DNA of 64,000 nucleotides from Methylomonas subterranea (lineage in GTDB: Bacteria > Pseudomonadota > Gammaproteobacteria > Methylococcales > Methylomonadaceae): NCBI RefSeq assembly GCF_024505185.1, contig NZ_JANIBJ010000001.1, positions 124,001-188,000 on the forward strand, written 5' to 3'. The position numbers and the translations under genes are program-made. The notes under the pieces are model-generated. The model did no database searches and had not been told where the DNA came from. It saw only the letters and a list, made by a program, of their open reading frames with translations. Shown here one piece after another: positions 26,557 through 55,184 of this stretch. Each line of letters starts with the position of its first letter. Position 1 is the stretch's first letter.

Positions 26557-29376
26557 ATGGCCGCTTGGTTGGAAGCTTTACTGAATAGTTCGAAAAACTT
26601 CATGCCTCACGGCGCCTGTTATTTATGGCAGCCATCGGTGTTATGGTTGCATGTCATCAGCGATACGCTGATCGTCTTGTCTTATTACTCCATTCCGTTC
26701 GCCCTGGCGTACTTTGCCTACAAGCGCACGGACCTGATCTACCGCTGGATGTTTGTGTTGTTCGGAGCGTTTATTTTGCTTTGCGGCACCACGCATTTGC
26801 TGAGCATTTGGACGATCTGGCATCCCGATTATTGGCTTGAAGGTTGGGTCAAGCTGTTGACAGCCATGGTTTCGGTTGCTGCGGCCGTTCTGGCCTGGCC
26901 CTTGATACCCAAACTCCTAAAGTTGCCTAGTCCGTTCGCGTTAAAAGCCAGCGAAAGTTATATGCGGGCCATTTTCGATGCCACGCCGGATGCCATGTTG
27001 ATAACGAATCAGGGCGGCATCATCACCATGGTGAATCATCAGTGCGAATCCTTGTTGGGGTATCGGGCGGAAGAGTTGATAGGTCGTTCCATCGAAATTC
27101 TGGTCCCGGAGTCGTTGAGGATAAAGCATGTCGGATTGCGGGAAGCGTTTGCCGCTAATCCCTCGGTAAAATCCATGGGCGCGGGACGGGTGGTAAAGGC
27201 ACAAAAAAAGGATGGCACGGTATTCGATGTCGAAATCAGCCTGAGCCCCATAAGGACAGGCAAGGGTTTGTTTTTCGCCAGCGCGATGCGCGACATCACG
27301 CAGCGCAAGATCATGGAAGACGTGCTGCGAGCCAGCGAAGAGCGATTTAGGCGGATGTCGGATGCCTCGCCGGCCATGATATGGATTACCGATGTAAACG
27401 GTAAGCCCAGCTTCGTCAATCAAACCTGGCTGGATTTTGTCGGCATTGCATTTGATCAAGCCATCAGTTATGAAAACTGGATTCAGTTCATTCATCCGGA
27501 CGACAGGGACAGCGTGTTTGCCGAATACTACAAAAACGTGTTCGATCAAAAACCCATAGTCACCGAATACCGCATGCGGCGCGCCCGAGGCGACTGGCGC
27601 TGGATACTCGATCATGGCGTGCCCATCCATGATGAAAATGGCGCGTTTGCCGGCTACATCGGCTCGGCCTTCGATATCACCGAGCGGAAGCAGGCGGAAG
27701 CCGAATTCCGTATTGCCGCCACTGCCTTCGAGTCGCAGGAAGCCATGGTGATTACCGATGTCAATGCGGTGATTTTGCGCGTCAATAAAACCTTTACCGA
27801 ATCCACCGGCTACTCCGCCGAAGAGGCGGTGGGGCAAAACATCAGCATATTGAAGTCCGGTCGCCACGAGCGGGATTTTTACGCCGACATGTGGCACAGT
27901 TTGACTACCACCGGTACTTGGCAAGGCGAAATTTGGGACAAGCGTAAAAACGGCCAAATTTATCCCAAGTGGCTGACCATTACGGCGGTCAAGGACGAGA
28001 CAGGCGCGGTTACGCATTACGTGGGTACCCACATCGATATCAGCGACCGCAAGGCCGCCGAGGATGAAATCAAAAATCTGGCCTTCTACGACCCGCTGAC
28101 GCAACTGCCGAACCGGCGCCTGTTGCTGGACCGCTTGCAGCAGGCCTTGGCGGCTCATGCCCGTAAACAGCAGTTCGGCGCCTTGTTGTTTTTGGACCTG
28201 GATAACTTTAAAAACCTGAACGATAGCCTGGGACACGAGAAAGGCGATCAGTTGCTGCAACAGGTCGCCAGTCGCTTGAGCTCTTGTGTGCGCGAATACG
28301 ATACCGTGGCCAGACTGGGTGGGGACGAGTTTGTGGTCATGCTGAAGGAGTTGGGCGGCAAGAGCGCCGAGGCCGCCATTCAGGCCGAAATCATCGGCGA
28401 CAAGATTCTGCAAAGCCTTAATCAGGTGTACTTATTCGAAGGTTACGAGCATCGCAGCACCGCCAGCATAGGGGTGACCTTGTTCAACGATCAATCGCTC
28501 GGTATCGACGAACTGCTGAAGCAGGCCGACATTGCCATGTACCAGGCCAAGGCCGCGGGCAGAAACAATATGCGCTTTTTCGACCCGGCCATGCAAGCGT
28601 CCATTGTGGCGCGCGCGGCGCTGGAGCAGGCTCTGCGCGAGGCGCTGGAATCCCGCCAATTCAAGGTGTTCTATCAGCCGCAAGTCGATGCCGGCGGCCG
28701 TATTCACGGGGCCGAGGCCTTGCTACGTTGGGAACACGGCAAACATGGCATGGTGGCTCCCGCCAGCTTTATACCCTTGGCCGAGGAAACCGGCCTGATT
28801 TTGCCGATAGGACTCTATGTGTTGGAAAGCACCTGCCAACAATTGGTGAAATGGTCCGGACAGCCGGGCATGGAGCATTTGACGATAGCCGTCAACGTCA
28901 GTATCCGCCAATTCAGGCAGGAAGACTTTGCCCGTCAGGTGCTGGCGGTGTTGGCCGAAACCGGGGCGAATCCGGCCCGGCTAAAACTGGAGTTGACCGA
29001 AAGTATTCTGGCCTTGGATTTACAGGACATCAAAGCCAAGATGACTAGCTTGAAGAGCCGGGGCGTGCGGTTTTCACTGGATGATTTCGGTACCGGCTAT
29101 TCTTCGCTGGCGTATTTGAAACAGTTACCGCTGGATCAATTGAAAATCGATCAAGGTTTCGTCAGCGACATCCTGGTCGATGCCAATGATGAAGCCATCG
29201 CGAAAATGATCATAGCCTTGGCCGCCAGCATGGGGCTGGAGGTTATCGCGGAAGGGGTGGAAACCGTCATGCAGGAACAAAAGTTACTGCATCTGGGCTG
29301 CCGTAACTATCAGGGTTACTTGTACGGTAAACCGCTGCCGGTCGATCAATTTGAAGCCTTGATCAGGCGCCGTTGA
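26557..29376 (+). CDS. ethylene-receptor-type sensor with PAS x3, GGDEF and EAL
   Basis: The 939-aa protein begins with a three-helix membrane domain (residues about 27-120) that aligns without gaps to the ETR1 ethylene-binding domain at an offset of 11. Asp36, Tyr43, Ile46, Pro47, Ile73, Cys76 and His80 correspond to ETR1 D25, Y32, I35, P36, I62, C65 and H69, where Cys and His bind Cu(I). Three PAS domains follow (about 132-255, 260-385 and 388-505). The GGDEF domain (about 510-675) has an intact GGDEF and an RxxD inhibitory site five residues earlier. The EAL domain (about 690-935) has EALLRW and DDFGTGYSS. It should make or degrade c-di-GMP in response to a ligand. It stands alone, 227 bp before nifH. 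Confidence 0.9.
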   Translation: MAAWLEALLNSSKNFMPHGACYLWQPSVLWLHVISDTLIVLSYYSIPFALAYFAYKRTDLIYRWMFVLFGAFILLCGTTHLLSIWTIWHPDYWLEGWVKLLTAMVSVAAAVLAWPLIPKLLKLPSPFALKASESYMRAIFDATPDAMLITNQGGIITMVNHQCESLLGYRAEELIGRSIEILVPESLRIKHVGLREAFAANPSVKSMGAGRVVKAQKKDGTVFDVEISLSPIRTGKGLFFASAMRDITQRKIMEDVLRASEERFRRMSDASPAMIWITDVNGKPSFVNQTWLDFVGIAFDQAISYENWIQFIHPDDRDSVFAEYYKNVFDQKPIVTEYRMRRARGDWRWILDHGVPIHDENGAFAGYIGSAFDITERKQAEAEFRIAATAFESQEAMVITDVNAVILRVNKTFTESTGYSAEEAVGQNISILKSGRHERDFYADMWHSLTTTGTWQGEIWDKRKNGQIYPKWLTITAVKDETGAVTHYVGTHIDISDRKAAEDEIKNLAFYDPLTQLPNRRLLLDRLQQALAAHARKQQFGALLFLDLDNFKNLNDSLGHEKGDQLLQQVASRLSSCVREYDTVARLGGDEFVVMLKELGGKSAEAAIQAEIIGDKILQSLNQVYLFEGYEHRSTASIGVTLFNDQSLGIDELLKQADIAMYQAKAAGRNNMRFFDPAMQASIVARAALEQALREALESRQFKVFYQPQVDAGGRIHGAEALLRWEHGKHGMVAPASFIPLAEETGLILPIGLYVLESTCQQLVKWSGQPGMEHLTIAVNVSIRQFRQEDFARQVLAVLAETGANPARLKLELTESILALDLQDIKAKMTSLKSRGVRFSLDDFGTGYSSLAYLKQLPLDQLKIDQGFVSDILVDANDEAIAKMIIALAASMGLEVIAEGVETVMQEQKLLHLGCRNYQGYLYGKPLPVDQFEALIRRR

Positions 29377-29537: not shown

Positions 29538-30488
<951 letters not shown>

Positions 30489-34706: not shown

Positions 34707-35471
34707 ATGGCCGAGCCCACCGAGTCCGTTTCCACGCCACTGGCCGATTGCAGTCTGTGCCCTTTTCGAAACAAAACCCTGTTGATGGGGCGCTGCATGC
34801 CGGGCGACACCTGTGTGCTGGCGGAAAGCGGTCGTCAGATCGACCGCTTTTTCCGGGTTAATCCCGCTTACGCGGTTTTATATTTACAGGACAGATTTTG
34901 GGAACGGCGTGCCATTGCCGTGCGCTATGCCCCGCAAAAAGCCCTGCACGCCTTGCTGACCGACGAAGACGAAGTGGTGCGGCGGGCGGTGGCCTATCGT
35001 TTACCTTCCAGTCAATTGCAGCATTTGATCGACGATCCGGATCGGGAAGTACGCATGACCGTGGCCGATCGCATCGATCCGGAATACCTGGAAGCCCTGG
35101 CCGACGACAGGGATTATATCGTGCGGCTGATGGTGGCCAAGCGCCTGCCGGCCGGGCGCTTATTCCGCTTCATCAAGGACGACGATGTGCAGGTGCGTAA
35201 AATCGTGGCCGAGCGTCTGCCGGAGGTGAGCTTGGGCCTGATGGTCAACGATCCGTCCGCCGACGTCCGCCGCATAGTCGCCGAACGCTTGCCGCCGGAA
35301 GATGCGGCGGCCCTGCTTAACGACAGCGATTGGGTGGTGCGCTACACGGTGGCCTTGAAAGCCGACCCGAAACATCTTACCGTATTGATTGACGATCCCG
35401 AACCCGATGTGCGCGAAGTGGCGCTGCGCCGTCTCAATTCAACCCACGCCCCGGATTCCGAACATGACTGA
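34707..35471 (+). CDS. Fe-S-containing leucine-rich-variant (LRV) repeat protein
   Basis: The 254-aa protein has an N-terminal cysteine cluster (C15, C18, C30, C36), the ligand set of the [4Fe-4S] cluster in the Azotobacter LRV protein. About seven 24-residue helical repeats follow, of the form D.D..VR..VA.RLP...L..L. LRV genes are found downstream of nif genes in Azotobacter and several methanotrophs. A molecular function is not established. Its stop overlaps the next start by 8 bp, so the two proteins are probably made together. Confidence 0.85.
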   Translation: MAEPTESVSTPLADCSLCPFRNKTLLMGRCMPGDTCVLAESGRQIDRFFRVNPAYAVLYLQDRFWERRAIAVRYAPQKALHALLTDEDEVVRRAVAYRLPSSQLQHLIDDPDREVRMTVADRIDPEYLEALADDRDYIVRLMVAKRLPAGRLFRFIKDDDVQVRKIVAERLPEVSLGLMVNDPSADVRRIVAERLPPEDAAALLNDSDWVVRYTVALKADPKHLTVLIDDPEPDVREVALRRLNSTHAPDSEHD

Positions 35472-36426
35472 GCCTCGTTTGATGCTTGCCGGACAAGATA
35501 TTACCGAATGCTGTAAAAAAATCATCCCCGGCCAAACCGAAGACTTACTGTTAAGCCAACTGCAAGGTCTGATAGCCGATTATCCGATTCAATTGGCCTT
35601 GGCCGGCGAAGAGTGGTATCGGCTGGGCGGCGTAGTCGATATGGACGGGCAGCGGATAGCCAACGATTTGATCGAATGGGCGGAACGCACCTATCTGGAA
35701 TGCGGGCAAAATCTGCAAACCTTGATCGATTACACCGTCGAACAAAAACTGATTGCCACCAAGCAAACAGGCAAAACCTTGTATTTCGTGGTGCAGACCG
35801 GCGACAGGGCCGAGGATTTCACCCTGATAGAGATCGACAAGACCCACGAAGTCACCGACCGCATGCTGGTTAATCCACTGCAGCCGCCGGAGGATTTGGA
35901 AGAATTCATCGATCCTCTGCAACCCTTTTGCATAGAAAGCTACGGTTTCGGCCATTCGCGCTATACCTATCGCCGCAAAACCGACGTCAAGCTTTTTATG
36001 GACGTCATCAACGAACGCCACCGGGGCGAACATCCGGTGCAGCGTTTCATGGATGATTGGAACAGAAGCAGCGCCGGGCAGAAAAAACGCCTGTCCGACG
36101 AATGGATCATCCGCCCGTACCAGCACACCGGGCGCTTCGGCGAGCAGATCGTCAACGTCGACATCATCAACACCCAACAATACATCTTGCCGCATCTGGA
36201 AGACTTTTCCGGAAAAAAAGGCAATGCCCTCAGCAGTTTGCTGAATCGTTTCGACCGTCAGGCCGGTTATCCCTTTGCCTGGTTTTTCTACATGCTGAAG
36301 GGCAAACAGGTTTCGACCCATTGCGCCGAAGCGGTTTACCGCGACATTGCCGGCGATTTTGCCTACCTGGGCCAGCGCGACGAGGCCGTATTGAGGGATT
36401 GGATCGCCAGTCCGTATAACGTGTGA
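35464..36426 (+). CDS. nif-operon protein of unknown function
   Basis: The 320-aa soluble protein begins at ATG 35464, inside the end of the LRV gene. No signal peptide or membrane segment is visible. It has mixed alpha/beta character, a few scattered cysteines (for example CCKK near residue 14) and no catalytic motif I recognise. The tight overlap with the LRV gene and its place at the end of the nif operon point to a nitrogen-fixation accessory role; this is inference from context only. Confidence 0.7.
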   Translation: MTEPRLMLAGQDITECCKKIIPGQTEDLLLSQLQGLIADYPIQLALAGEEWYRLGGVVDMDGQRIANDLIEWAERTYLECGQNLQTLIDYTVEQKLIATKQTGKTLYFVVQTGDRAEDFTLIEIDKTHEVTDRMLVNPLQPPEDLEEFIDPLQPFCIESYGFGHSRYTYRRKTDVKLFMDVINERHRGEHPVQRFMDDWNRSSAGQKKRLSDEWIIRPYQHTGRFGEQIVNVDIINTQQYILPHLEDFSGKKGNALSSLLNRFDRQAGYPFAWFFYMLKGKQVSTHCAEAVYRDIAGDFAYLGQRDEAVLRDWIASPYNV

Positions 36427-36534: not shown

Positions 36535-36564
36535 CAGTTGACCTTTCCGCCGCAGGAGTACGCC

Positions 36565-38508
36565 ATGAACTTATCAGCAGTTGGTTTTTTAGGTGCCGTC
36601 CTTGCAATTTGCTGGGCCGTCGATGCGCAAGCCGTCAGCATCACGCAACGGGCCGGTAATAACTTCCGCACCGCCGCGAACAATCGCGAGTTCGTTCTGA
36701 ACAAATCCAATGTGAATGCCAACGATTTCGGCCTGCTGCGCATTCACGATTTCAACGCCAAGGTGGAAACTCAGCCGTTGGTAGTCGAAAAAGGCGCCGG
36801 GTCGGATGACTTGGTGATTATCACCACCATGAAAAACGAAGTCATAGGCATCAACGCCCGCACCAATGCCCGGGTCTACGATGTCAAATTGGGGCCGGAA
36901 ATCAGTTCCCAAGACATGGATATGTGGAAACACACCCCCACCTGGGGCATTTCCGCCACGCCGATTATCGATCCGGCTACCGACACCCTGTATGTGGCGG
37001 CCTGGCTGAAAAAAGACGACGACAACCGCTTCCGCGATTATTGGATATTTGCGTTGAATCCCCTGAACGGTAGCCGGAAGGCGGAACCGGTGCGGATTTT
37101 CGGGCAGTCCCAGGAAGGCAACGGCTGCTGGTTTAACGATGCCGGCGCTGTTTACAGACAGAATAATCAAACCAGGCAATACGTTTATCCAAAATTGCGC
37201 GCCGGGCTGGCGCTCACCGAAAATCACGGCTTGGTGCTAGCCTTTGCCGCAAACGGCGAGTCCTTGATGGGCGGGCGGAAAAATCCGCACGGCTTTGTGG
37301 TGGCCTACGATACCCGCGGTTTGCTGGGGCGGGATGGGGTTTCCCGCCAACCCGCCATGTTCTGCGCCACCTCGTTCAACGGCTGGGGCGCCGGCATTTG
37401 GCATGCCGGCGGCGCGCCGGTCACCGAAGGCGACATGATTTACGTAGCCACTTCCAACGGCACCTCCAATAACGGCGATGTCGATCTGGCGGAAAGCATG
37501 ATCAAATTGCGTTTTGTCCCCGGTAGCGGCGGCGCCCGGCCGCTGCTGGAAAAAGTCGATTATTACAAGGCGTTCCTGGACGAGCGCAAGTCCGGCGGCG
37601 GCTGTTTGTGGCGGGATAACAACTCCGAAGTGTCCTGCGGCCGCGGCGGTGTCGGCAGCGCCGCCGCCGACTGGGATTTCGGCGCGGCCGGGCCGATGCT
37701 GGTGCCGGGCTCCAGTCTGCTGCTGCAAGGCACCAAGGACGGCATTATTTATTCGCTGGACAAGTTCAATCTGGGAAAAAATGATCGCTTCAACCAATTG
37801 TTATCCAAGCCGCCGTTGGTGGCCTCTTATTACGGTGGCGACCTCAACCAAAATTGGGACAGGGCCCAGCATTTGAATCGCAGTCTACCGTGTCCGGCCT
37901 CCGGACACAGCGACCATGGCTGGTTTATGCCGTGCGGCGACCCGGAAAACAACAAAATGCATCACATTCATGCGCTGGCACTGGCTCAGCGTAACCAGAC
38001 CGGCGGCATTGTTTATGTCTGGGGCGAAAACTCCCGTTTGAAAAGCTATAACTTTTCCACCCTGGACGGCGAATTGCCGACTTTTAGGGCCGAGGGCGAA
38101 GATATGGCGTCCGTGGGTTACGAATCGCCCGGCGGCATGCCTGGCGGGCTATTGATGTTGTCCGGCAAGCCGTCCGCCAGTTCCACTTTTCCGCATGCGA
38201 TCGATTTCGGTTCGGCAATTCTGTGGTCGGTATATTCCAAGTTCGGCGACGCCAACAAGGAGTTTGCCGAAGGTCAATTGGTGGCTTACGACGCCACCGG
38301 CATAGAGCAGGGTAAGCGCATGAAGCGCCTGTTTCGCACCGGCGACGATAACAACGGCGGGCTGGGGAAAATGTCCAGAATGATCCCGCCGGTGGTAGCC
38401 AACGGCAGGGTCTATGTAATGATTTACCGCGTCAACACCGATGATTGCACGGTACCCGACAATCAGTTGAAGGTGTGCAGTCAGTTGAAAGTGTATGGCT
38501 TGAGATAA
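36565..38508 (+). CDS. exported beta-propeller-like protein
   Basis: The 647-aa protein has a signal peptide (cut near VDAQA, residue about 23). It then shows repeated blades resembling PQQ-type or quinoprotein-like propellers, such as SATPIIDPATDTLYVAAW and DYWIFALNPLNG. Cysteines occur in pairs (CWF, CATS, CLW, SCGRG), perhaps as disulfides. No haem motif is present. The start at ATG 36565 has GGAG upstream. Enzymatic activity cannot be stated. It lies between the nif operon and a phosphate transporter gene, with no clear link to either. Confidence 0.6.
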   Translation: MNLSAVGFLGAVLAICWAVDAQAVSITQRAGNNFRTAANNREFVLNKSNVNANDFGLLRIHDFNAKVETQPLVVEKGAGSDDLVIITTMKNEVIGINARTNARVYDVKLGPEISSQDMDMWKHTPTWGISATPIIDPATDTLYVAAWLKKDDDNRFRDYWIFALNPLNGSRKAEPVRIFGQSQEGNGCWFNDAGAVYRQNNQTRQYVYPKLRAGLALTENHGLVLAFAANGESLMGGRKNPHGFVVAYDTRGLLGRDGVSRQPAMFCATSFNGWGAGIWHAGGAPVTEGDMIYVATSNGTSNNGDVDLAESMIKLRFVPGSGGARPLLEKVDYYKAFLDERKSGGGCLWRDNNSEVSCGRGGVGSAAADWDFGAAGPMLVPGSSLLLQGTKDGIIYSLDKFNLGKNDRFNQLLSKPPLVASYYGGDLNQNWDRAQHLNRSLPCPASGHSDHGWFMPCGDPENNKMHHIHALALAQRNQTGGIVYVWGENSRLKSYNFSTLDGELPTFRAEGEDMASVGYESPGGMPGGLLMLSGKPSASSTFPHAIDFGSAILWSVYSKFGDANKEFAEGQLVAYDATGIEQGKRMKRLFRTGDDNNGGLGKMSRMIPPVVANGRVYVMIYRVNTDDCTVPDNQLKVCSQLKVYGLR

Positions 38509-40920: not shown

Positions 40921-42294
40921 TTAAACCTGATCCAGTTGGTGGCGGATCAAATCCTGCAGGCCGTGTTTTTCCACCAGACTGTAAAGCGTCGGTCGCGCAA
41001 TGCCCAACAGTCGGGATGTTTCCGAGATGTTGTAGTCACTGTATAGCAGTGCGCGTTTAATGGCCGATAATTCCGCCGCTTCTCTTACTGCCTTTAAATT
41101 CAACGGCATGGCGTTATCGACTTGTTCCGACATTTCCATGTCTTGCAGCGTGATCAGGTTTGAGTCGGATAAAATCACCGCGCGTTTGAGTTTGTTTTCC
41201 AACTCTCGGATATTGCCCGGCCAAGCGTAGTTTTCCAATGCCTGGGCCGTATCCGGCGCAAAACGTTTTTCCTTGCAATTGTTTTGGTTGCAGTAGCGCT
41301 TCAACAGCGCATTGCCGATGGCCAGAATATCCCCTTCGCGTTCACGTAAGGCCGGGATTTCTATGCTGATTTCGCTGAGGCGGTAATACAAGTCAGCTCT
41401 AAACAGGTTTTGCTCAATCAGTTGCTGAATATTGCGATGGGTCGCGCAAATAATCCGTACATCAACAGCTATTTCCTTGCGTCCGCCTAGGCGCTCGATG
41501 ACACGCTCTTGAATGAAGCGCAGTAATTTGGCTTGCAGCGCGAAGGGCAGGTCGCCAATCTCATCCAGAAAAAATGTGCCGCCCTCGGCGTATTCGATCT
41601 TGCCCTTGGTTTGGTTGACCGCGCCGGTAAATGCGCCTTTTTCGTAACCGAATAACTCGCTTTCCAATAAAGTATCCGGGATCGCGGCGCAATTAACCGC
41701 CACGAAGGGCTTTTGCGCGCGCGGGCTTTGCGAGTGTATGGCCTTGGCCAGCAGTTCCTTGCCGGTGCCGCTTTCGCCCAATAACATGACGGTGGCTTGG
41801 GTTGGGGAGATTCTGTCTATCATGCGCATTACAGATAGCATTTGGGGACTGGTAGCGATAATGCCGCTGCTAAATGCTTGTTGCTGCTGAAGATTTCTAA
41901 AGTCGGTTTCCAGCGCATGCAGGTGGAAGGCCCTGGCAATGATCATATTGAGTATGTCAGCATCAACCGGTTTTTGATAAAAATCGTAAGCGCCTTGGGC
42001 AACGGCCTCAATGGCATTGGCGCGGTCGTCGTTTCCGGTGACGACAATAACTTTCGTATGCGGGGCTAATTCCAGTATTTCCTTGAGTGTGGCCAAGCCC
42101 TCGCTGGCATTGGTCGGATCCGGCGGGAGGCCGAGGTCGAGCGTGACAACGCTGGGCATGTGGCGCCTCAGGGCCGCTATGGCTTCCGACCGATTATTGG
42201 CCAGGATGATGTCGTATTGTTCCAGACTCCATTTAAGTTGCTTTTGCAGGCCCGGGTCGTCTTCGACGATTAACAGTTGATTGGATACTGGCAT
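40921..42294 (-). CDS. prsR: PrsR, sigma-54-dependent response regulator
   Basis: The 457-aa protein has a receiver domain (residues about 5-125, phospho-acceptor Asp53 in TLDLGLP). An AAA+ sigma-54 interaction domain follows, with Walker A GESGTGKE and the GAFTGA loop that contacts sigma-54. A Fis-type helix-turn-helix ends the protein (ISETSRLLGIARPTLYSL). This is the architecture of the PEP-CTERM-box regulator PrsR, which pairs with PrsK. It starts 7 bp after prsK, so both are co-transcribed. Its targets usually include PEP-CTERM and exopolysaccharide genes; I found no matching sigma-54 site in this locus. Confidence 0.9.
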   Translation of the reverse strand: MPVSNQLLIVEDDPGLQKQLKWSLEQYDIILANNRSEAIAALRRHMPSVVTLDLGLPPDPTNASEGLATLKEILELAPHTKVIVVTGNDDRANAIEAVAQGAYDFYQKPVDADILNMIIARAFHLHALETDFRNLQQQQAFSSGIIATSPQMLSVMRMIDRISPTQATVMLLGESGTGKELLAKAIHSQSPRAQKPFVAVNCAAIPDTLLESELFGYEKGAFTGAVNQTKGKIEYAEGGTFFLDEIGDLPFALQAKLLRFIQERVIERLGGRKEIAVDVRIICATHRNIQQLIEQNLFRADLYYRLSEISIEIPALREREGDILAIGNALLKRYCNQNNCKEKRFAPDTAQALENYAWPGNIRELENKLKRAVILSDSNLITLQDMEMSEQVDNAMPLNLKAVREAAELSAIKRALLYSDYNISETSRLLGIARPTLYSLVEKHGLQDLIRHQLDQV

Positions 42295-42301
42295 GGTTTT
42301 A

Positions 42302-44362
42302 TTAACTTAAAGGTAGTTGTATGGTGAATGTTGTGCCGTGTCCTGGCTGGCTTTGCACATCCAATTGTCCGGCATTTTTCAAGATGAAGTCCCTGGCTTC
42401 GTAAGCGCCGATTCCCATGCCGGCATTGCCCTTGGTGGTGTCGAAGGGCTTGAATAGTCGTTCGGCAATAAATGACGGTTCCATGCCTATACCGTTGTCC
42501 ATGATTTTGAGTACAGCATAATCGGCTTGTTTGCTTAATACCAATTTTACCCAGCCATCCGGTTTCTGGCTTGCGTCCTGGGCGTTTTGTATCAGATTGG
42601 TGATGACGCTGATGAGTTTAGTCTGATCTGCTTTGATCATGCAGTCTATCAACTCGGTTTCGAATGTGAATGCGGGAGTACCGTTGTGTTGGCGTTCTAT
42701 TTTTGTGATGACGTCGACCAAATTGGTAAGCGTGGCTGAACTACCGGAGGATTTTCCCTGCTTCAGTTGCTCAACGATGTGTTGCATTTTGCTGACAGCG
42801 TGGTTAAGCGTATCAATGGTGTCATCGAAGAAATCCGGATTGTGTTTATGTTTGGCGGCATTTCGTACAACCAGGGACAGTTGGGCCGCAATGTTTTTAA
42901 GGTCGTGAACTAAATAAGCCGACAGCCGGTGATAGGTTTCAAATTGTTTATTATTGGCCAAGGCTTCGCTGGCTCTGTTCAATGCAAGGGCATTGGCGAG
43001 TTGCATGCCGACGGTTTTAAGCAGGTCATGGTCCTCCCAATTTAGTTTTCTGCGCGCTCTCGGTTGCGTCAATACGGCGAATGCTTCCAGGTGATTCAGA
43101 TGAAACAGCGGTACTATCAACCACACTTCGCTATCTTCGTAACACCATGGGGTCAGGTCTATGTCGTCGTAAACCTCCGGGGCGTGGGCTAACTCGTAAA
43201 AATCTATAACCCATTGTTTTTGGCTGAGATAGCGAGGCAATTGAGGGGCTGTTTTCAGGCTTGCCAGTTCTTGCTGAGTGAGGCGCAAATTATGTTCGGC
43301 GGCCAGGAAAAATTGCCCTTGATCGTTTTTAAGCCACAACCCGCCGCCGCTGCTTTCTACCAAGTCCGTCAGGGTGGTGATGATAAAATGCTTCAGTTCA
43401 TCAAGAGACTCGAGTTTCGCCAAGGCTTGGCTGATCTTTAACCATTCCTCGCGATAATCATAACTGTAGTGAAAGAAATGTTTGCCGAAGTAGACCTTGG
43501 CCAACGCCCGAATCTTACCGGAAGTGAATGAAATGACCAGGATAAGGATGGCCAGAAAAACAAAAATGGTTTGTATGGACTCGCCCCACTCGGCATTCAC
43601 TTGTTTTAGATAGAAGCCGGTGGCCGACATCAAGATTAGATAAACGCCGCAGCCAATTAAAATGGTTGTGTAAAAAGTTGTCTTACGCGATATGGAAAAC
43701 GTTGTCTGGTTGGAAATGCTATCGAGCCTGGGTAATGCAAGTGCGAGGACGGGGGCTATCAAAGCGTTAATGATTCCGCGCGATTGCCACAATGGTATGT
43801 CCAAGTTCTTGTAAAGTAATGATTTACTGTAGACGATCAGGTCGATGGCGAATAATGCCCCGGCCCCTAGGCATAGATACTTTAAGTTCCAACGCAGGTT
43901 TAAAGGTGTGTTGCGGTAAAGTTGTTCCGTCAGGATCAGACCGAAGATGGCAAATATTACGTGAGAGTAAAATCGAGGATCGACACCGCTTGATTGTTGA
44001 ATGATTTCCAATAAATCGGGAAAACTCTCTATACTGATAGTAAACAAAATGATCAAGGTGACGGATAAGGCTGACTTGGAGCGAACAATGCGCCAATAAC
44101 CGCCACCATGTAGCAGTTTGTTTAACATCGCGGTGAGTAACAAAAACAATGCTGCATTTCGCAAGGTTTCAAAAACCAATGCGTCGGCCAGAAAAAATTC
44201 ATGTTCCTGGGTTGTTCTTAAAATACTCGCGCTCCAGAGCATTACGAACAACATAGCAACAATGAATGCCCAATTTCGGTTTTTTCTTAGCACGGCATAA
44301 AGAAAAAGCACCGAATAGGCGCACAAGTTGGCCAAGTAGCTAAAATAAATATAATTTTCCAT
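42302..44362 (-). CDS. prsK: PrsK, XrtA-system sensor histidine kinase
   Basis: The 686-aa protein has about eight N-terminal membrane helices (residues about 5-290), a GAF-like domain (about 320-460) and a histidine-kinase core. The phospho-acceptor is in VHDLKN at about residue 486, with ATPase motifs NLIQNAQDAS, DNGIGM and GMGIGAYEARD. This matches PrsK of PEP-CTERM loci. It senses an unknown envelope signal and phosphorylates PrsR. It is divergent from the cyclic-nucleotide-binding gene, with 98 bp between the two starts. Confidence 0.9.
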   Translation of the reverse strand: MENYIYFSYLANLCAYSVLFLYAVLRKNRNWAFIVAMLFVMLWSASILRTTQEHEFFLADALVFETLRNAALFLLLTAMLNKLLHGGGYWRIVRSKSALSVTLIILFTISIESFPDLLEIIQQSSGVDPRFYSHVIFAIFGLILTEQLYRNTPLNLRWNLKYLCLGAGALFAIDLIVYSKSLLYKNLDIPLWQSRGIINALIAPVLALALPRLDSISNQTTFSISRKTTFYTTILIGCGVYLILMSATGFYLKQVNAEWGESIQTIFVFLAILILVISFTSGKIRALAKVYFGKHFFHYSYDYREEWLKISQALAKLESLDELKHFIITTLTDLVESSGGGLWLKNDQGQFFLAAEHNLRLTQQELASLKTAPQLPRYLSQKQWVIDFYELAHAPEVYDDIDLTPWCYEDSEVWLIVPLFHLNHLEAFAVLTQPRARRKLNWEDHDLLKTVGMQLANALALNRASEALANNKQFETYHRLSAYLVHDLKNIAAQLSLVVRNAAKHKHNPDFFDDTIDTLNHAVSKMQHIVEQLKQGKSSGSSATLTNLVDVITKIERQHNGTPAFTFETELIDCMIKADQTKLISVITNLIQNAQDASQKPDGWVKLVLSKQADYAVLKIMDNGIGMEPSFIAERLFKPFDTTKGNAGMGIGAYEARDFILKNAGQLDVQSQPGHGTTFTIQLPLS

Positions 44363-44460
44363 GACTGCTGCCGATTATTAGACCTTTGGGCGGAGATGTA
44401 AAGCGGGTGTCAAGGTACCATGGCTAATGGCTCGAATGTGGATTACGTGTATAGGTAAGT

Positions 44461-44934
44461 ATGAAGCAAATACTCGATGACATATTAAACAGTCCCCAGT
44501 TTGCGGAAGGCAGTGCATGGAAACGCGTGCACTATAAGGCAGGCGATAAAATCATCGAAAAGGGCGAGTTGGGTAGTACCTTGATTCTGGTTGAAGAAGG
44601 CAGTGTGCGCGTTCTTGGTGGAGCGGAGCTGGAAGGCAGGGTCAAAATAACGCCGGGCTTATGCGATCTGGCCGCCGGGGCGATTTTCGGGGATATCTGC
44701 CTGTATGGCTCGCATCGCAGAACGGCTTCCGTAGTAGCTTTAAACGATACCCGAGTATTGGAAATCCGTAGTGATATGTTGAGCGTGTACCTGGATGATC
44801 ACCCAATTGAGGGTTATTTGTTTTTAAAAGCTCTTTTTGAAATCATGGCGACCCGGCTGGAAACGGCCAATGACCGTATCGAAAAGCTTTTGGCCTGGGG
44901 TATAAAAGCGCATGACATCGATAAATACCTTTAG
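44461..44934 (+). CDS. cyclic-nucleotide-binding-domain protein
   Basis: The 157-aa protein is a single cNMP-binding fold: GDKIIEKGELGSTLILVEEGSVRV, then GAIFGDICLYGSHRRTASVVAL, then a C-terminal helix. There is no DNA-binding domain. It opens the plus-strand exopolysaccharide gene set and is divergent from prsK. The canonical RxS cAMP contact is not clear, so its ligand is unknown. It may act on a neighbouring enzyme by direct binding (inference). Confidence 0.8.
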   Translation: MKQILDDILNSPQFAEGSAWKRVHYKAGDKIIEKGELGSTLILVEEGSVRVLGGAELEGRVKITPGLCDLAAGAIFGDICLYGSHRRTASVVALNDTRVLEIRSDMLSVYLDDHPIEGYLFLKALFEIMATRLETANDRIEKLLAWGIKAHDIDKYL

Positions 44935-44958
44935 ACGTGAGTAAATAGGGACTGGCAG

Positions 44959-45696
44959 ATGAATGACAAGTCCGAAGTAACGTTGACAGAGAGTTTTGAG
45001 CGCTATTTCAAGGTAGAATTGGCTGAGTCGGATATTCAAAAGCAGCTGGTTTATGGGGTTAGGTATCGTGTTTATTGCGAGGAATTCAAATACGAAGCGG
45101 TTGATTTGTTTCCCGATGGCTTGGAAACGGACGAATATGACCAAGTGTCTCGGCATTGTTTGGTAATTCATAGAAGAACGGGATTGCCCGCCGGATGTGT
45201 AAGACTGGTTCCCGCCTTGGGGGGACGGGAAGAAATGCCCTTACCACTGGAAAAATTTTGTAGTTCGAGTCTAAATCAGCAACAAATCGAAAAATTGGGT
45301 TTGCCGAGATCAACCGTGTGCGAGATTTCCAGGTTGGCGGTCGATGGAGCGTTTCGGCGCCGAAGTGGTGAGTCCTTGACGCGGTTTGGTGAAATCTCCA
45401 GTCTGCATTTCTCGGATCAGGAACAAAGAAGCTTCTCGTTAATTGCCGTGGCCTGTTTCTTGGCGGCGACAGCCATGACCGAAATGGATAACAGAACCAA
45501 TGTGTTCGCAATGATGGAGCCTTTCCTGCCGCGCTTGATGCATCGCTCCGGAATCGATTTTCAGAGGATAGGCAAGGATATGTATTACCACGGCATCAGA
45601 GCGCCTTATTTTATAACCACGCAATCGGCGCTGGAAAATATGCATCCTGATTTGCTTGAATTGTATGTATGGATTAAAAATGCTCTGATTGAGTAA
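44959..45696 (+). CDS. PEP-CTERM/exosortase A-associated acyltransferase
   Basis: The 245-aa protein belongs to the GNAT-like N-acyl transferase group related to acyl-homoserine-lactone synthases. It has VYGVRYRVYCEEFKYE, the RHCLVIHRRTGLPAGCVRLV strand pair and the CEISRLAV motif with its conserved Glu-Ile-Ser-Arg. Members are found only with XrtA loci. The acyl acceptor is not known. It lies 24 bp after the cNMP-binding gene. Confidence 0.85.
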   Translation: MNDKSEVTLTESFERYFKVELAESDIQKQLVYGVRYRVYCEEFKYEAVDLFPDGLETDEYDQVSRHCLVIHRRTGLPAGCVRLVPALGGREEMPLPLEKFCSSSLNQQQIEKLGLPRSTVCEISRLAVDGAFRRRSGESLTRFGEISSLHFSDQEQRSFSLIAVACFLAATAMTEMDNRTNVFAMMEPFLPRLMHRSGIDFQRIGKDMYYHGIRAPYFITTQSALENMHPDLLELYVWIKNALIE

Positions 45697-45731
45697 TTTT
45701 TTTGATTAAATAAAAACTTTGGGAGTTTATC

Positions 45732-48149
45732 GTGTCATTCAGTCAAGCAAATATAATTAAATTATATTTTCCGATTCTAGTGCTTAGTGCTTTGATGGCA
45801 ACGGCATGTGATTCGCCGGATGAATTAGCGGAAAATCACTTGCAAAAGGGTAAGGAATTGCTCGATAAAGGCGAGTACGATAAAGCGATTCTCGAATTGA
45901 AAACATCAGCCCAAAGTAGCGATCAACGATCGGAAACTTATTACTACATGGCTTTGCTGGATGAAAAATCCAATAATTTTAAATCCATGAGGGAAAACCT
46001 TAAAAAAACTCTGGAGCTCGATCCTGCTAATATTGATGCCAGGCAAAAATTAGGCAAAGTGGATTTGCTTTTCGGCGATTTTGATAGCGCCCTGGAACAC
46101 GCCGATTTTGTTTTAAGGGCAAATCCTGGAAATGAAGAGGCAAAGTTGTTAAGAGCGACTGTTTTAATTAGGCAAAAAAAGAATGAGCAGGCCAGCGAGA
46201 TAATTGATTCAGTGATTGCGGTTAACATGAAAAATACCGATGCATTATCATTGAAAGCGGGCTTGATGTTCGAGGAAAACAAACTGGAACAAGCTCTTGA
46301 GTTAACGGAAAGGGCATTGCAACTGGATGATAAAAATATTCCCCTAAGATTATTTAGAATAAAAATACATGCGAAGCAGAATAATTCTGATGCGGTTGTA
46401 GAAGATTACAAAGGTTTGATTGAATTATATCCGGATGTGGAAAACTTCAAATTGAGTTTGGCTTCCATATATTCCATGAAAGATCAGTTGCAGCCGGCGG
46501 AAACCTTGCTGCGGGAGATGATTGAGAAAAATAAAGCAAAGACGGAGCCGAAAATCATTTTGCTGGAGTTTTTGAATGCTAAAGCCAAGGATAGAGTGGC
46601 AAGCGAGTATCAGTCCATGTTTGATGGCTGGGGAGAGAATCCTTCAGGCAGGTTGGAACTGTCAAAATGGATGCTGGCATCCGGATATTTGGACGAGGCA
46701 GAAAAAGGCCTGGAAAAAATTGTCTCAGTTGAGAAAAATAACCAAACAGGGTTGGCTGCTCAAGCAATACTTGCGGAAATTTTTATTGACAAAAAGCAAT
46801 ATGATAAGGCCGATACGGCTGTTTCCAATATTCTGAGTGAAAACTCTGATTTTGTTGAAGCAAATTTGCTGAAAGCACGGTTGTTTTTGATTAATAATAA
46901 AGTCGATGACGCAATTGAATTGTTGAATAAAGTAGTCTGGACCAAGAATGACTCCGATAACGCATTTATGTTGTTGGGGCAGGCATATAGCACCAAGAAA
47001 GACCCAAAGCAGGCGGAAAAAAATTATAAACAAGCCTTGGAATTGAATCCCGCCAATTTGCAGGCCTTTATACCAGTCTACGGTAAATATTTACAAGCCA
47101 ATCAAAAGGAAAACGCGCGGCAACTTTTGGAAAAGGCCTTGAAAGCCAAACCGAATCAGGCCATGTTCCTGACATATAAGGCGGAATTGGATATCTCCGA
47201 AAAGCGCTGGGATGAGGCCCAGGAGACGGTTCAACGTATTGCTTTGTTTTCGAAAAATAAAACCATTCCAGTATATTTTCAGGCCAATATATTGCAAGGC
47301 AAGGGTCAGTACGCCGATGCGGTAAAGCTTTATGAAAAAATATTGAATGAGTTTCCTGGTCACCTGAATTCCTTGGTTAATTTGATACGGTCATATGATG
47401 GGCTCAAGCAACGCGACAAATCATTGGCTTTTGTTGAAGGGTTGCATCAGAAAAATAAAGAGGATTTAACGATCGTAGGTGTATTAAGTGATTTATACAT
47501 GGCCGATAAGGATTATGTTAAGGTCAAACAGTTACTTGAAAATCAAATTAAGCTGTTGCCTGATAAGTCGGTTCCGCTGTATTTGGCTTTGGCAAAAGTT
47601 GAGGCCGTTTTGAAAAAATCCGCTGATGGCGCCAAACAAGTTTATTTGGCGGGATTGCAGGCCAATCCCGATCAGCCACAGTTGTTGTTGGCCTTAGGTA
47701 GTCTGTATGAGCAACTGAATGATAAAAATGAAGCGCGTAAGGTTTATGAGAAGATAATTGAAAAGACTCCGGATAATATTCTGGCAGTAAATAACTATGC
47801 GGCATTGTTGCTGGAATCCGATCAGGCCGAGGATTTGGCAAAAGGTTTGGAAATGGCTCAGCGGTTTAAGGATTCGGAAAACGTTTCTCTTCAAGATACC
47901 TATGCCTGGGGTTTGGTTAAAAATGATAAAAACCCAGAAGGATTGGCACTTCTCGAGTCTTTGATTGTTAAAGAGCCCAAAATGGCTGAACTTAGATATC
48001 ATTTAGGCGTAGCTCATCTAAAGAATGGCAATAAAGCAACCGCGCTAGTCGAATTAAAGCAATCAATAGACTTGGCGGAAAAGCAACAGCGTGGTTTTGC
48101 CGGTAAGGACGAGGCGCAAAGGCTGATAAAAGAACTTACGGGTCGTTAA
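45732..48149 (+). CDS. prsT: PrsT, TPR lipoprotein of the XrtA system
   Basis: The 805-aa protein has a signal sequence with lipobox-like MATAC (Cys about 26) and then TPR repeats along its whole length (for example YYYMALLDEKSNNFKSMREN and KAEKNYKQALELNPANLQAF types). PrsT proteins are envelope scaffolds in PEP-CTERM exopolysaccharide loci. The start is GTG 45732 with GGGAG before it. The gene is visibly more AT-rich than the nif and exported-protein regions. Confidence 0.85.
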   Translation: MSFSQANIIKLYFPILVLSALMATACDSPDELAENHLQKGKELLDKGEYDKAILELKTSAQSSDQRSETYYYMALLDEKSNNFKSMRENLKKTLELDPANIDARQKLGKVDLLFGDFDSALEHADFVLRANPGNEEAKLLRATVLIRQKKNEQASEIIDSVIAVNMKNTDALSLKAGLMFEENKLEQALELTERALQLDDKNIPLRLFRIKIHAKQNNSDAVVEDYKGLIELYPDVENFKLSLASIYSMKDQLQPAETLLREMIEKNKAKTEPKIILLEFLNAKAKDRVASEYQSMFDGWGENPSGRLELSKWMLASGYLDEAEKGLEKIVSVEKNNQTGLAAQAILAEIFIDKKQYDKADTAVSNILSENSDFVEANLLKARLFLINNKVDDAIELLNKVVWTKNDSDNAFMLLGQAYSTKKDPKQAEKNYKQALELNPANLQAFIPVYGKYLQANQKENARQLLEKALKAKPNQAMFLTYKAELDISEKRWDEAQETVQRIALFSKNKTIPVYFQANILQGKGQYADAVKLYEKILNEFPGHLNSLVNLIRSYDGLKQRDKSLAFVEGLHQKNKEDLTIVGVLSDLYMADKDYVKVKQLLENQIKLLPDKSVPLYLALAKVEAVLKKSADGAKQVYLAGLQANPDQPQLLLALGSLYEQLNDKNEARKVYEKIIEKTPDNILAVNNYAALLLESDQAEDLAKGLEMAQRFKDSENVSLQDTYAWGLVKNDKNPEGLALLESLIVKEPKMAELRYHLGVAHLKNGNKATALVELKQSIDLAEKQQRGFAGKDEAQRLIKELTGR

Positions 48150-48196
48150 AATCGGCAACATTAACTTACTGATTTTTTTTGGTGGATTTTTAGAAA

Positions 48197-48919
48197 ATGA
48201 TAAAGACTAAAGTTTCAGCAGTCTTGCAGACAATGTTTGCGTGCGTTGTTTTACTTTTTTTAAACGGTTGCTCGCAGCCTTTGCTTGAAGATGTTGCACA
48301 ATCCTCGGATTACACCTATCAAATTGGACCGGGCGATAGCGTCAATATTTTCGTGTGGGGTAATCCGGAGTTGTCGACGTCGGCTACGGTCAGGCCGGAT
48401 GGCAAGATCACTGTTCCATTGGTCGAAGAATTGCTCGCGAATGGAAAAACCCCTTTTCAAGTGGCAAGGGATATTGAAGAAGTATTAAAAGTCTATGTCA
48501 AAAGTCCTCAGGTAGTGGTGATGGTTTCGGGATTTAAAGGGGTTAGAGATCAACAGATAAGAGTTATAGGTCGCATTGGTGGTGGCTCTTCCGGCGGAGG
48601 CATGGGCGGAGGCATGGGCGGAGGCATGGGCGGAGGCATGGGCGGAGGCATGGGCGGAGGCATGGGCGGTGGAGGAATAGGTCGTTATCAGGGTAAGTCT
48701 TTGCCTTATGAGCGGGGTATGACTTTATTGGATGTCATTATTCAAATAGGCTTAAATCAATACGCCGATGGAAATAGGGCGAGTGTAATTCGTGCAATAG
48801 ACGGAGAACTGAAATCTTATCGCGTAAGAATTGATGATTTGATCGATGATGCGGATTTGTCAGCCAATGTGCTTATGATGCCGGGTGATATATTAATTAT
48901 ACCGGATGCGTATTTTTAA
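48197..48919 (+). CDS. XrtA-system exopolysaccharide export protein (Wza-like)
   Basis: The 240-aa lipoprotein has lipobox LNGC (Cys about 24), a polysaccharide-export domain (YQIGPGDSVNIFVWGNPELS, then VRPDGKITVPLV) and an SLBB-type domain (YERGMTLLDVIIQIG, then MPGDILIIP). It should form the outer-membrane export channel. Between the two domains is a Gly/Met repeat encoded by a 12-bp tandem repeat (48593-48676), absent from typical homologues. It is followed by the chain-length determinant gene. Confidence 0.9.
   Translation: MIKTKVSAVLQTMFACVVLLFLNGCSQPLLEDVAQSSDYTYQIGPGDSVNIFVWGNPELSTSATVRPDGKITVPLVEELLANGKTPFQVARDIEEVLKVYVKSPQVVVMVSGFKGVRDQQIRVIGRIGGGSSGGGMGGGMGGGMGGGMGGGMGGGMGGGGIGRYQGKSLPYERGMTLLDVIIQIGLNQYADGNRASVIRAIDGELKSYRVRIDDLIDDADLSANVLMMPGDILIIPDAYF
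48593..48676 (+). repeat. 12-bp tandem repeat inside the export gene
   Basis: Six perfect copies of GGCGGAGGCATG (48593-48664) are followed by a degenerate seventh (48665-48676). Each unit encodes Gly-Gly-Gly-Met in the gene frame, so copy-number changes would stay in frame and only alter the linker length. Confidence 0.95.
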
Positions 48920-48960
48920 TATGGGTTTAACTATTTTCTACATACTTTCAAATTCGAACC

Positions 48961-50490
48961 ATGCAACATGAGTTAACCGAAGTTTATTTTTACTTAAAAG
49001 GAACGCTTAAGTACAAACGGGTGGCCTTTATGTTTGCCTTGCTGGTGTGCGTAAGTGGCTGGAGTTTTGTATTTTCCATGCCGGATAAATTCGAGTCGAA
49101 AGCTAAAGTGCATATTGATTCCTCCACAGTCATCAGGCCCTTGATGAGGGGTATGGTAATTGATCCTGATGTATCGGCTTTGATTCGGATCATTCAGCAA
49201 TTGATGTTTACAAGGCCAAATTTAGAGAAAATCATTGAACTGTCTCATATGCAGGCTGATAAATCCGGCGCAATAATCAGTAGCGATTTCATTGAGAAGT
49301 TAAAGAAAGATATTACTATTGAGGGTGCTCGAGACCGGGATATTTTTGATATTGGCTATTCCGCAACCGACCCGGAAACCGCCAAGAGCGTTGTTCAGGC
49401 CGTGCTAACCGTTTTTTCAGAACAGGCTCAAGGGAAGGCATTGGCGGATGCCAGCGATGCCCAGCGTTTTATAGAGCAGCAAATTCGAGATTACGAAATT
49501 AGACTGCAGGAAGCTGAAAAAGCCAAGGAGGATTTTAAACGGGCAAACATGGAATACCTTACCAGCGATTCAGATCAATTCCAATTGCTGAATCAGCTTA
49601 AAGAGCAACTTAACGCGGCAACGGCCGCGCTAGAACAGGCATTGGCTAGAAAGAGTGTGCTGGGAGAGCAGGTAAGAAACATTCAGCAATCGGATGAGGA
49701 CTGGGGTGTAACGAATATTTCAGAAGAGGTTTCGCAAGAGGACTCGCGAATAGCAGCGTTAAATGATAAAAAAACCGAGATGTTAATTAAATATACTGAA
49801 AATCATCCGGAAATTTTAGCGATTGACAGATTGATTGATTCATTGAAGCAACAAAAAGAACGCAATAAAAGTGAAACGAGTTCTGAAATGGATTGGCTCG
49901 GACCACAGAAAATGTCAAATCCTTACGTCCAAACACTGAAAATTGCATATGATAACGCCGACGCGGAAGTGGCGTCTGTCCAGGCACTAATAGGTTCAAT
50001 TAAGGCAAGAATAAATAAAATAGAACAAGGTTTGAATGAGCGACTCGCAATCGAAACCGAGATGAAGAACCTTAATAGGGATTATGAAACCATTAACAGT
50101 AAGTACTCTGAATTATTGGAGCGTAGAGAGCAAGCGCATATTACTGAACGGGTAGATGATCAAACGTCACGGTTAAAATTCAAAATTGCCGATCCACCAA
50201 CCAAGCCTAGTAAGCCATCTTCGCCAAATAGAATTCTATTCTATTCCGCTATTTTGATTGGAGGGATTCTTAGTGGGTTTGGTGTGGCTTTCTTGATTTA
50301 TTTTATCAGGCCGGTTTACATGTCGAGCCGGCAAGTCCGAGTCGTTACTGGGTTACCTTCTTTAGGCAGCGTTTCATTAACTAACCTTGGCATTACCAAA
50401 GCTAAAAGTGTTGATTGGCTTTTGTTAGGTACAATCGCACTGATAGCTATGGGGTATACAGGTATTATGTTATTTGAGATTTTAAAATAA
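48961..50490 (+). CDS. XrtA-system chain-length determinant (Wzz/GumC-like)
   Basis: The 509-aa protein has an N-terminal membrane helix (about 20-38), a large periplasmic coiled-coil region (about 120-400) and membrane helices near 420-445 and 485-505. The Pro-rich ADPPTKPSKPSSPNR segment before the C-terminal helix is typical. With the export protein and the tyrosine kinase it controls polymer length and export. No kinase domain is fused; the kinase is the next gene. Confidence 0.9.
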   Translation: MQHELTEVYFYLKGTLKYKRVAFMFALLVCVSGWSFVFSMPDKFESKAKVHIDSSTVIRPLMRGMVIDPDVSALIRIIQQLMFTRPNLEKIIELSHMQADKSGAIISSDFIEKLKKDITIEGARDRDIFDIGYSATDPETAKSVVQAVLTVFSEQAQGKALADASDAQRFIEQQIRDYEIRLQEAEKAKEDFKRANMEYLTSDSDQFQLLNQLKEQLNAATAALEQALARKSVLGEQVRNIQQSDEDWGVTNISEEVSQEDSRIAALNDKKTEMLIKYTENHPEILAIDRLIDSLKQQKERNKSETSSEMDWLGPQKMSNPYVQTLKIAYDNADAEVASVQALIGSIKARINKIEQGLNERLAIETEMKNLNRDYETINSKYSELLERREQAHITERVDDQTSRLKFKIADPPTKPSKPSSPNRILFYSAILIGGILSGFGVAFLIYFIRPVYMSSRQVRVVTGLPSLGSVSLTNLGITKAKSVDWLLLGTIALIAMGYTGIMLFEILK

Positions 50491-50506
50491 CAACAAGGTA
50501 ACCCTT

Positions 50507-53003: not shown

Positions 53004-53021
53004 TATAGCCAATTCAAATTT

Positions 53022-55179: not shown

Positions 55180-55184
55180 GATTT

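Follow-up and report, generated by a model that had tools for sequence, protein, structure and literature searches.

Two bacterial ethylene receptors with published work considered here, SynEtr1 and AzoEtr1, are histidine kinases. What, then, is to be made of a gene that wires the same sensor to cyclic di-GMP (c-di-GMP)? Such a gene lies in a 64,000-nucleotide stretch of the Methylomonas subterranea genome (assembly GCF_024505185.1, contig NZ_JANIBJ010000001.1, positions 124,001 to 188,000 of the forward strand; hereafter, the window). Its product combines an ethylene-receptor-like membrane domain with three PAS domains and a GGDEF-EAL output. The pairing of an ethylene-binding domain with GGDEF output is genuine; it is conserved, and it characterises a single lineage of methanotrophs. 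As to what it does, we think it probable that the protein is a membrane-bound c-di-GMP enzyme of the ethylene-receptor type, in which Cu(I)-dependent ethylene sensing would act directly on c-di-GMP and warn the cell of ethylene.

The first-pass annotation of the window, made from the letters alone, had described the open reading frame (ORF) as an ETR1-type membrane domain followed by three PAS domains, GGDEF and EAL. Pfam bears this out and fixes the exact coordinates (Table 1). The profile search that the annotation had proposed places ETR1_N at residues 28-123 with 135.6 bits, against a cut-off of 27; PAS is found in three places, GGDEF at residues 509-671 and EAL at residues 691-926, all far above cut-off. 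The output of this ethylene-receptor-like protein is GGDEF-EAL and not of the histidine-kinase type; it is therefore not a canonical two-component ethylene receptor.

The membrane domain carries counterparts of all seven ETR1 ligand-site residues to which the first-pass annotation had pointed (D25, Y32, I35, P36, I62, C65 and H69). They stand at a constant offset of 11, as D36, Y43, I46, P47, I73, C76 and H80. ETR1 K91 corresponds to K99 of the window protein, which follows His80 by 19 residues, the spacing reported for Lys98 and His79 in AzoEtr1 (PMC11819568). A pairwise alignment with a hand-entered sequence of the ETR1 N-terminus pairs 90 residues, of which 46% are identical, and scores 191; the maximum of 200 shuffles was 55. 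The alignment had been described as gap-free: this holds through the first two transmembrane helices and fails before the third, where there is one gap of three residues. A predicted structure, also proposed at the outset, shows three helices (residues 26-56, 63-88 and 92-113) followed by a PAS fold; this AlphaFold2 model, built for the membrane domain and PAS from an alignment of 21 sequences, has a mean predicted local distance difference test score of 84.3, with residues 14-20 below 50. No solved structure gave a sequence match to the membrane domain up to E = 1.

In order to place the fusion among its relatives, every ORF with ETR1_N was classified by output in three sets. The relatives and the phylum sample were found by the Pfam profile. 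The relatives, mostly from one genus (54 of 67 matches), comprise 67 matches and 68 ORFs, one match being split over two frames, and include the two of the window genome. The phylum sample holds 29 ORFs, since four of its 33 rows were set aside: the window genome's two, a short fragment and a row that fell below cut-off. The named set consists of the 80 loci, with 81 ORFs, that best fit the profile of the query; its peptide patterns contain Cys, His and Pro, and conservation in this set is therefore partly a product of selection. Among the relatives, 40 ORFs have GGDEF-EAL output, one has GGDEF, 24 are histidine kinases and three are unassigned; GGDEF output accounts for 35/54 ORFs in Methylomonas and 6/14 in a second family of the order, f4. 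A one-off fusion is ruled out by these 41 of 68 ORFs, GGDEF being the most frequent output in the sampled relatives. The phylum sample has no GGDEF output (0/29): 26 ORFs are kinases and three are unassigned, two of the latter being HWE kinases by Pfam. The named set comprises 19 GGDEF-EAL ORFs, 56 kinases and six unassigned. Fourteen of the 19 belong to Methylobacter, Methylomonas or other Methylococcaceae, the remainder to two deltaproteobacterial metagenome-assembled genomes (MAGs), a cyanobacterial MAG, Methylovorus menthalis and a Paucimonas MAG.

A quick tree (110 columns) places the window protein in a 16-row set composed entirely of GGDEF-EAL proteins (Shimodaira-Hasegawa-like approximate likelihood ratio support 98). 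The same tree requires nine changes between GGDEF and kinase output in all, and its well-supported branches force at least three for GGDEF-EAL. Counts of proteins are therefore not counts of independent events. In Methylobacter a further GGDEF-EAL ORF follows the ethylene-type gene in six of the 19 named loci (L041, L042, L048, L049, L057 and L060), the frame ends lying 34-284 bases apart; the four of these six that were scanned are all MASE1-PAS-GGDEF-EAL proteins, and three of the other 13 named GGDEF-EAL loci have fewer than 400 bases downstream.

If the domain had become an inert membrane anchor, with signals entering through the PAS domains, then its ligand site should be lost. Yet Asp, Cys and His are kept in 40/40 GGDEF-EAL ORFs of the relatives (the window genome's two included), and in 19/19 of the named set, there partly by selection; the Cys/His pair, whose loss in close homologues the first-pass annotation had singled out as telling, is thus present throughout. 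All seven residues are found in 27 of the 40 and in 19 of the 19, and in only three of the 24 kinases of the relatives, mainly since Ile35 differs. His is replaced by Arg in two ORFs of the phylum sample (L209 and L210) and Cys is gone from a third (L212), which means that the conservation test was able to fail. The membrane domain is also 78-84% identical to that of five orthologues (other domains, 61-94%), a further point against an inert anchor, although it does not separate ethylene from a similar ligand. The ligand site is conserved in the Methylomonas and Methylobacter relatives.

Published work documents the binding of ethylene by ETR1, SynEtr1 and AzoEtr1. Residues 1-130 of AzoEtr1 are reported to bind ethylene, and binding is reported as abolished by changes to AtETR1 Asp25 or Cys65, or to the comparable Cys of SynEtr1 (PMC11819568). 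On the basis of the residue map and its conservation we infer that the membrane domain of the window protein binds Cu(I) and ethylene.

The output region is most similar to MorA ('Motility regulator', PDB 4rnh; 1e-115). The motifs GGDEF, RxxD (I-site), EAL, NVS, ELTES, DDFGTG, KID, AEGVE and QGY are all present. By these signatures it is a dual GGDEF-EAL protein with complete catalytic and I-site motifs, and cyclase activity, phosphodiesterase activity or both are possible. A strict pattern for the catalytic motifs was passed in full by 25/40 and 4/19 GGDEF-EAL proteins (the window protein is among the 40); being too strict for the other 58 proteins, it was used for the window protein only. 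No NCBIfam equivalog exceeded its cut-off among the 25 families listed, the nearest being DibA (629 of 980 bits).

Between sensor and output stand the PAS domains. PAS1 has FixL as its best sequence match among solved structures (1d06, 6e-20), and rows 1-21 of a Foldseek search with it, headed again by FixL, are all haem PAS domains (FixL, FG214, DOS). PAS2 served as a control and matched FixL only at rank 10 (7.8e-4). His191 stands at the place of the haem-binding His of FixL, and Arg211 at that of Arg220, the Arg of the oxygen site. Of the 19 PAS1 sequences with an identity of 56% or more, the window protein's among them, all have His191 and 16 have Arg211. Farther out, the two positions vary in the first PAS matches: they read Gln-Glu in eight GGDEF-EAL proteins, Glu-Arg in 12 kinases and His-Arg in eight kinases. 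Because of this variation in distant PAS domains, and because kinases too can have the His, the residues are a lead to haem that falls short of proof; PAS1 probably carries haem and would add an oxygen input. PAS3 has as its closest solved matches 3ewk (5e-22) and 2gj3 (2e-17), listed as 'Sensor protein' and 'Nitrogen fixation regulatory protein', which we take to be MmoS and NifL. Both are flavin adenine dinucleotide (FAD) proteins, and PAS3 is a candidate FAD-type PAS.

Genomes were counted wherever ETR1_N exceeded the Pfam cut-off, the window's own genome being included each time. The domain occurs in 117/201 genomes of the host family, in 10/274 of a class sample (three of them the window's own genome and two kin) and in 28/398 of the phylum sample; none of 14 control genomes has it. 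Among 37 same-genus and 24 same-order genomes it occurs in 32 of 61: 27/37 in the genus, 5/6 in family f4 and 0/18 in six other families of the order. The domain is therefore strongly enriched in the host family and present in one other, and it does not by itself mark a methanotroph. That methanotrophs in general would share it is ruled out by 13 genomes of the order that carry genes of the ammonia/particulate methane monooxygenase (AMO/pMMO) family and lack ETR1_N. This check covered genomes of the order and the phylum sample; in the latter, a strong AMO-family match was seen in just two further genomes (G162 and G247), neither of which has the domain. Some methanotroph-family genomes have multiple ETR1_N matches, six in G818 and five in G060.

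The host itself, which had been suspected of oxidising methane, is confirmed as a methanotroph with pMMO-family genes: it is a Methylomonas with a 4.41-Mb genome (99.9% complete) and two AMO/pMMO-family genes. It carries a second gene with an ethylene-binding domain (L033:8659-11268, that is G000:C2 at about 106.7-109.3 kb), the product of which has two PAS stretches, GGDEF and EAL. The two membrane domains are 53% identical, and the second gene adjoins what its sequence suggests is a queA-like gene.

Taken together, these observations suggest the following scheme. In a dimer, Cu(I) would be held by Cys76 and His80 of helix 2, positioned by Asp36 of helix 1, and would bind ethylene. From there the signal would travel by way of helix 3 (Lys99) and the stacked PAS domains to GGDEF-EAL, perhaps gated by oxygen at a PAS1 haem, and the level of c-di-GMP would shift directly, without a phosphorelay. 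The cell, thus warned of a gas that methane monooxygenase converts to toxic epoxyethane, would alter attachment, matrix or movement. The direction of the c-di-GMP change and its purpose are what we infer here rather than observe; a warning of ethylene would be the most likely purpose. Methane monooxygenases are reported to co-oxidise ethylene to epoxyethane, ethylene is often toxic to methanotrophs, its concentration in soil gas is given as 1-15 ppmv, usually highest where soil is waterlogged, and exposure to it switches on detoxification genes in Methylohalobius (PMC11507031).

Several observations weigh against this reading. The alarm purpose would rest on toxicity data from another genus. 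An intact sequence does not guarantee that both domains of a GGDEF-EAL enzyme are active. One or more of the seven ligand-site residues are altered in 13/40 GGDEF-EAL relatives, in 12 of the 13 by a change of Pro36 to Ala or Ser, though not in the window protein. Thirteen of the 18 genomes in the six domain-free families of the order are AMO/pMMO-positive, and 10 of 37 same-genus genomes lack the domain (two of these are less than 90% complete). Since ETR1_N is missing from so many AMO-positive kin, an ethylene alarm is at most one lineage's solution.

A broader version of the scheme, possible but doubtful in our judgement, holds that the single protein is a coincidence detector for gases, in which ethylene on Cu(I), oxygen (or CO or NO) on the PAS1 haem and redox state on the MmoS-like PAS3 would together set c-di-GMP, and that Methylomonas, Methylobacter and related bacteria perceive ethylene by means of it. 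If true, then cells could leave, or wall off, places where ethylene and oxygen together make pMMO yield epoxyethane.

It is unlikely that the ligand is another small pi-ligand (acetylene, CO or propylene), or that the domain is the inert anchor considered above. Plant ethylene receptors also bind other olefins and CO, and both PAS1 and PAS3, taken by themselves, resemble PAS domains of sensors; the anchor is opposed by the retained ligand site. We regard as improbable, too, that the domain reports the Cu(I) loading of the membrane and so ties copper supply for pMMO to c-di-GMP. The conserved Asp/Cys/His Cu(I) site, the presence in the host of pMMO, a copper enzyme, and the closeness of PAS3 to MmoS, which has a role in copper-dependent methane oxidation, all fit a copper sensor. 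However, the ETR1 ethylene residues outside the metal shell (Y32, I35, P36 and I62) are kept as well, and domain and enzyme part company in both directions: the 27 other ETR1_N genomes of the phylum sample are not among its AMO-family matches, and 13 AMO-positive genomes of the order are without the domain.

The gene was also described as standing next to nitrogenase, which is true as a matter of position: nifH, nifD and nifK follow it on the same strand, and genes for a Lnb_N protein, a META-domain protein and a Phenol_MetA_deg protein precede it. One reading of this placement is a sensor that couples nitrogenase activity, or the gases of nitrogenase, to c-di-GMP. Orthologues in five same-genus genomes (L034-L038) are full length and 73-83% identical over 929-948 residues. 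None of the five has a neighbour from window 14-50 kb within the fetched flanks, the residual matches being overlapping frames or generic GGDEF and TPR proteins. The four orthologues with enough flank (L038 is a 9.6-kb contig and stood outside the flank-to-flank comparison) have instead parC and/or a dus-folE-hemH run within about 5 kb: parC upstream in G027, G014 and G008, and dus-folE-hemH downstream in G027, G009 and G014, with one gene between in G009. In the window genome parC shares the contig but lies 35 kb upstream, whereas folE is on a different contig, and the sensor gene is therefore sited differently from those of G027, G009 and G014. The distance from orthologue to nifH is 0.94 Mb in G009 and 0.45 Mb in G014; in G008 the two are on separate contigs, and in G027 the only nifH match is a weak one (1.2e-7, 25% identity). 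A 1470-aa frame beside the G009 orthologue (L035:4708-9120) contains NMT1 and SBP_bac_3, GAF, PAS, GGDEF, EAL and a CZB zinc-binding domain.

Promoters point the same way. The TGGCAC-N5-TTGC motif ahead of nifH is the sole zero-mismatch sigma-54 site in the window; with up to two mismatches there are 81 matches, against 81.9 by chance, and none of these lies between the upstream gene and the sensor gene. The site suggests separate control of the nif operon. Although the gene is adjacent to nif on the same strand, and in Azospirillum ethylene is reported to lower nifH transcript and Azoetr1 expression to rise under nitrogen fixation (PMC11819568), orthologue context, nifH positions and promoters together speak against a functional link, leave a nitrogen-fixation sensor very improbable, and mark the position beside nif as, judged from gene order, incidental.

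The suggestion that the output serves the nearby XrtA exopolysaccharide locus fares no better. The XrtA/PEP-CTERM locus is real (window 40921-56051), with a PrsK/PrsR two-component pair on the opposite strand, and no tie to the sensor was found: the context comparison took in the first part of the locus only, and that part is absent beside the orthologues save for a weak TPR match (about 22% identity).

Between nifK and two long ORFs lies a gene for an LRV FeS-cluster repeat protein (window 34707-35471). Both long ORFs have TTG starts; one (35389-36426) has no NCBIfam match and the other (36538-38508) no Pfam or NCBIfam match, and they may be mis-started, spurious or new. We read a GGAGGG stretch before the ATG of the sensor gene as resembling a ribosome site.

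Table 1. Coordinates in the window of the sensor gene, its domains and the neighbouring promoter site.
Feature	Position	Strand	Evidence or remark
Full gene, ethylene-receptor-like PAS-PAS-PAS-GGDEF-EAL protein	26557..29376	+	939 aa, ATG start
Ethylene-binding-type membrane domain (aa 26-123)	26632..26925	+	PF25487 7.5e-40, residue map, three modelled helices
PAS1 (aa 132-252), FixL-like haem PAS candidate, His191 and Arg211	26950..27312	+	Best PDB match 1d06 FixL
PAS2 (aa 262-378)	27340..27690	+	Pfam; best PDB match 3mr0, 3.6e-9
PAS3 (aa 386-500), MmoS/NifL-like, FAD-type candidate	27712..28056	+	3ewk 5e-22, 2gj3 2e-17
GGDEF domain, motif aa 588-592, RxxD I-site from aa 579	28072..28572	+	Pfam, motif check
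EAL phosphodiesterase domain, catalytic signature residues kept	28615..29352	+	Pfam, residues; MorA 4rnh
Perfect sigma-54 (-24/-12) site 5' of nifH (context, not part of the sensor)	29542..29556	+	Zero-mismatch motif match

If the protein senses ethylene, then a family of methane oxidisers, more than half of whose sampled genomes carry the sensor, often joined directly to c-di-GMP, would suggest a way in which organisms harmed by ethylene become aware of it, and the sensor would tie ethylene, a gas of plants and wetlands, to methanotroph attachment and perhaps to methane emission. Among the literature matches listed, no title or abstract opening describes a fusion of an ethylene-binding domain to GGDEF or EAL, or methanotrophs with an ethylene receptor, although the architecture may have been published before; the main text of PMC11507031 does not use the word 'receptor'.

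How, then, does the protein compare with known systems? AzoEtr1 of Azospirillum brasilense is described as having the same three-helix ethylene-binding domain followed by PAS, the same Asp, Cys and His, and a helix-3 Lys 19 residues after the His; it differs in having one PAS, a histidine kinase and a response regulator, and a putative sigma-54 promoter with nitrogen-linked expression (PMC11819568). SynEtr1 (slr1212) of Synechocystis is likewise an ethylene receptor from a bacterium in which a further sensor domain follows the membrane domain, but that further domain is reported to be a GAF photosensor, joined to a histidine kinase that signals to slr1213 (PMC7700396). A c-di-GMP connection has a precedent in Geitlerinema, where the putative ethylene receptor GeiEtr2 is grouped with a diguanylate-cyclase-domain gene, although the cyclase is there a separate gene and no fusion (PMC6682694). 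Arabidopsis ETR1 shares the seven ligand-site residues and 46% of 90 membrane-domain residues, and differs by the three-residue gap before helix 3. Its output is GAF-histidine-kinase-receiver, unlike the GGDEF-EAL found here. MorA-type proteins (4rnh) share the GGDEF-EAL region at 1e-115; they are not known to have an ethylene-binding domain. The haem PAS oxygen sensors FixL and DosP resemble PAS1 in sequence and fold, PAS1 having a candidate haem-ligand His and pocket Arg at the corresponding positions, and DosP is itself a PAS-GGDEF-EAL enzyme; both differ from the window protein in having no ethylene-binding domain, and haem in PAS1 of the latter is a candidate.

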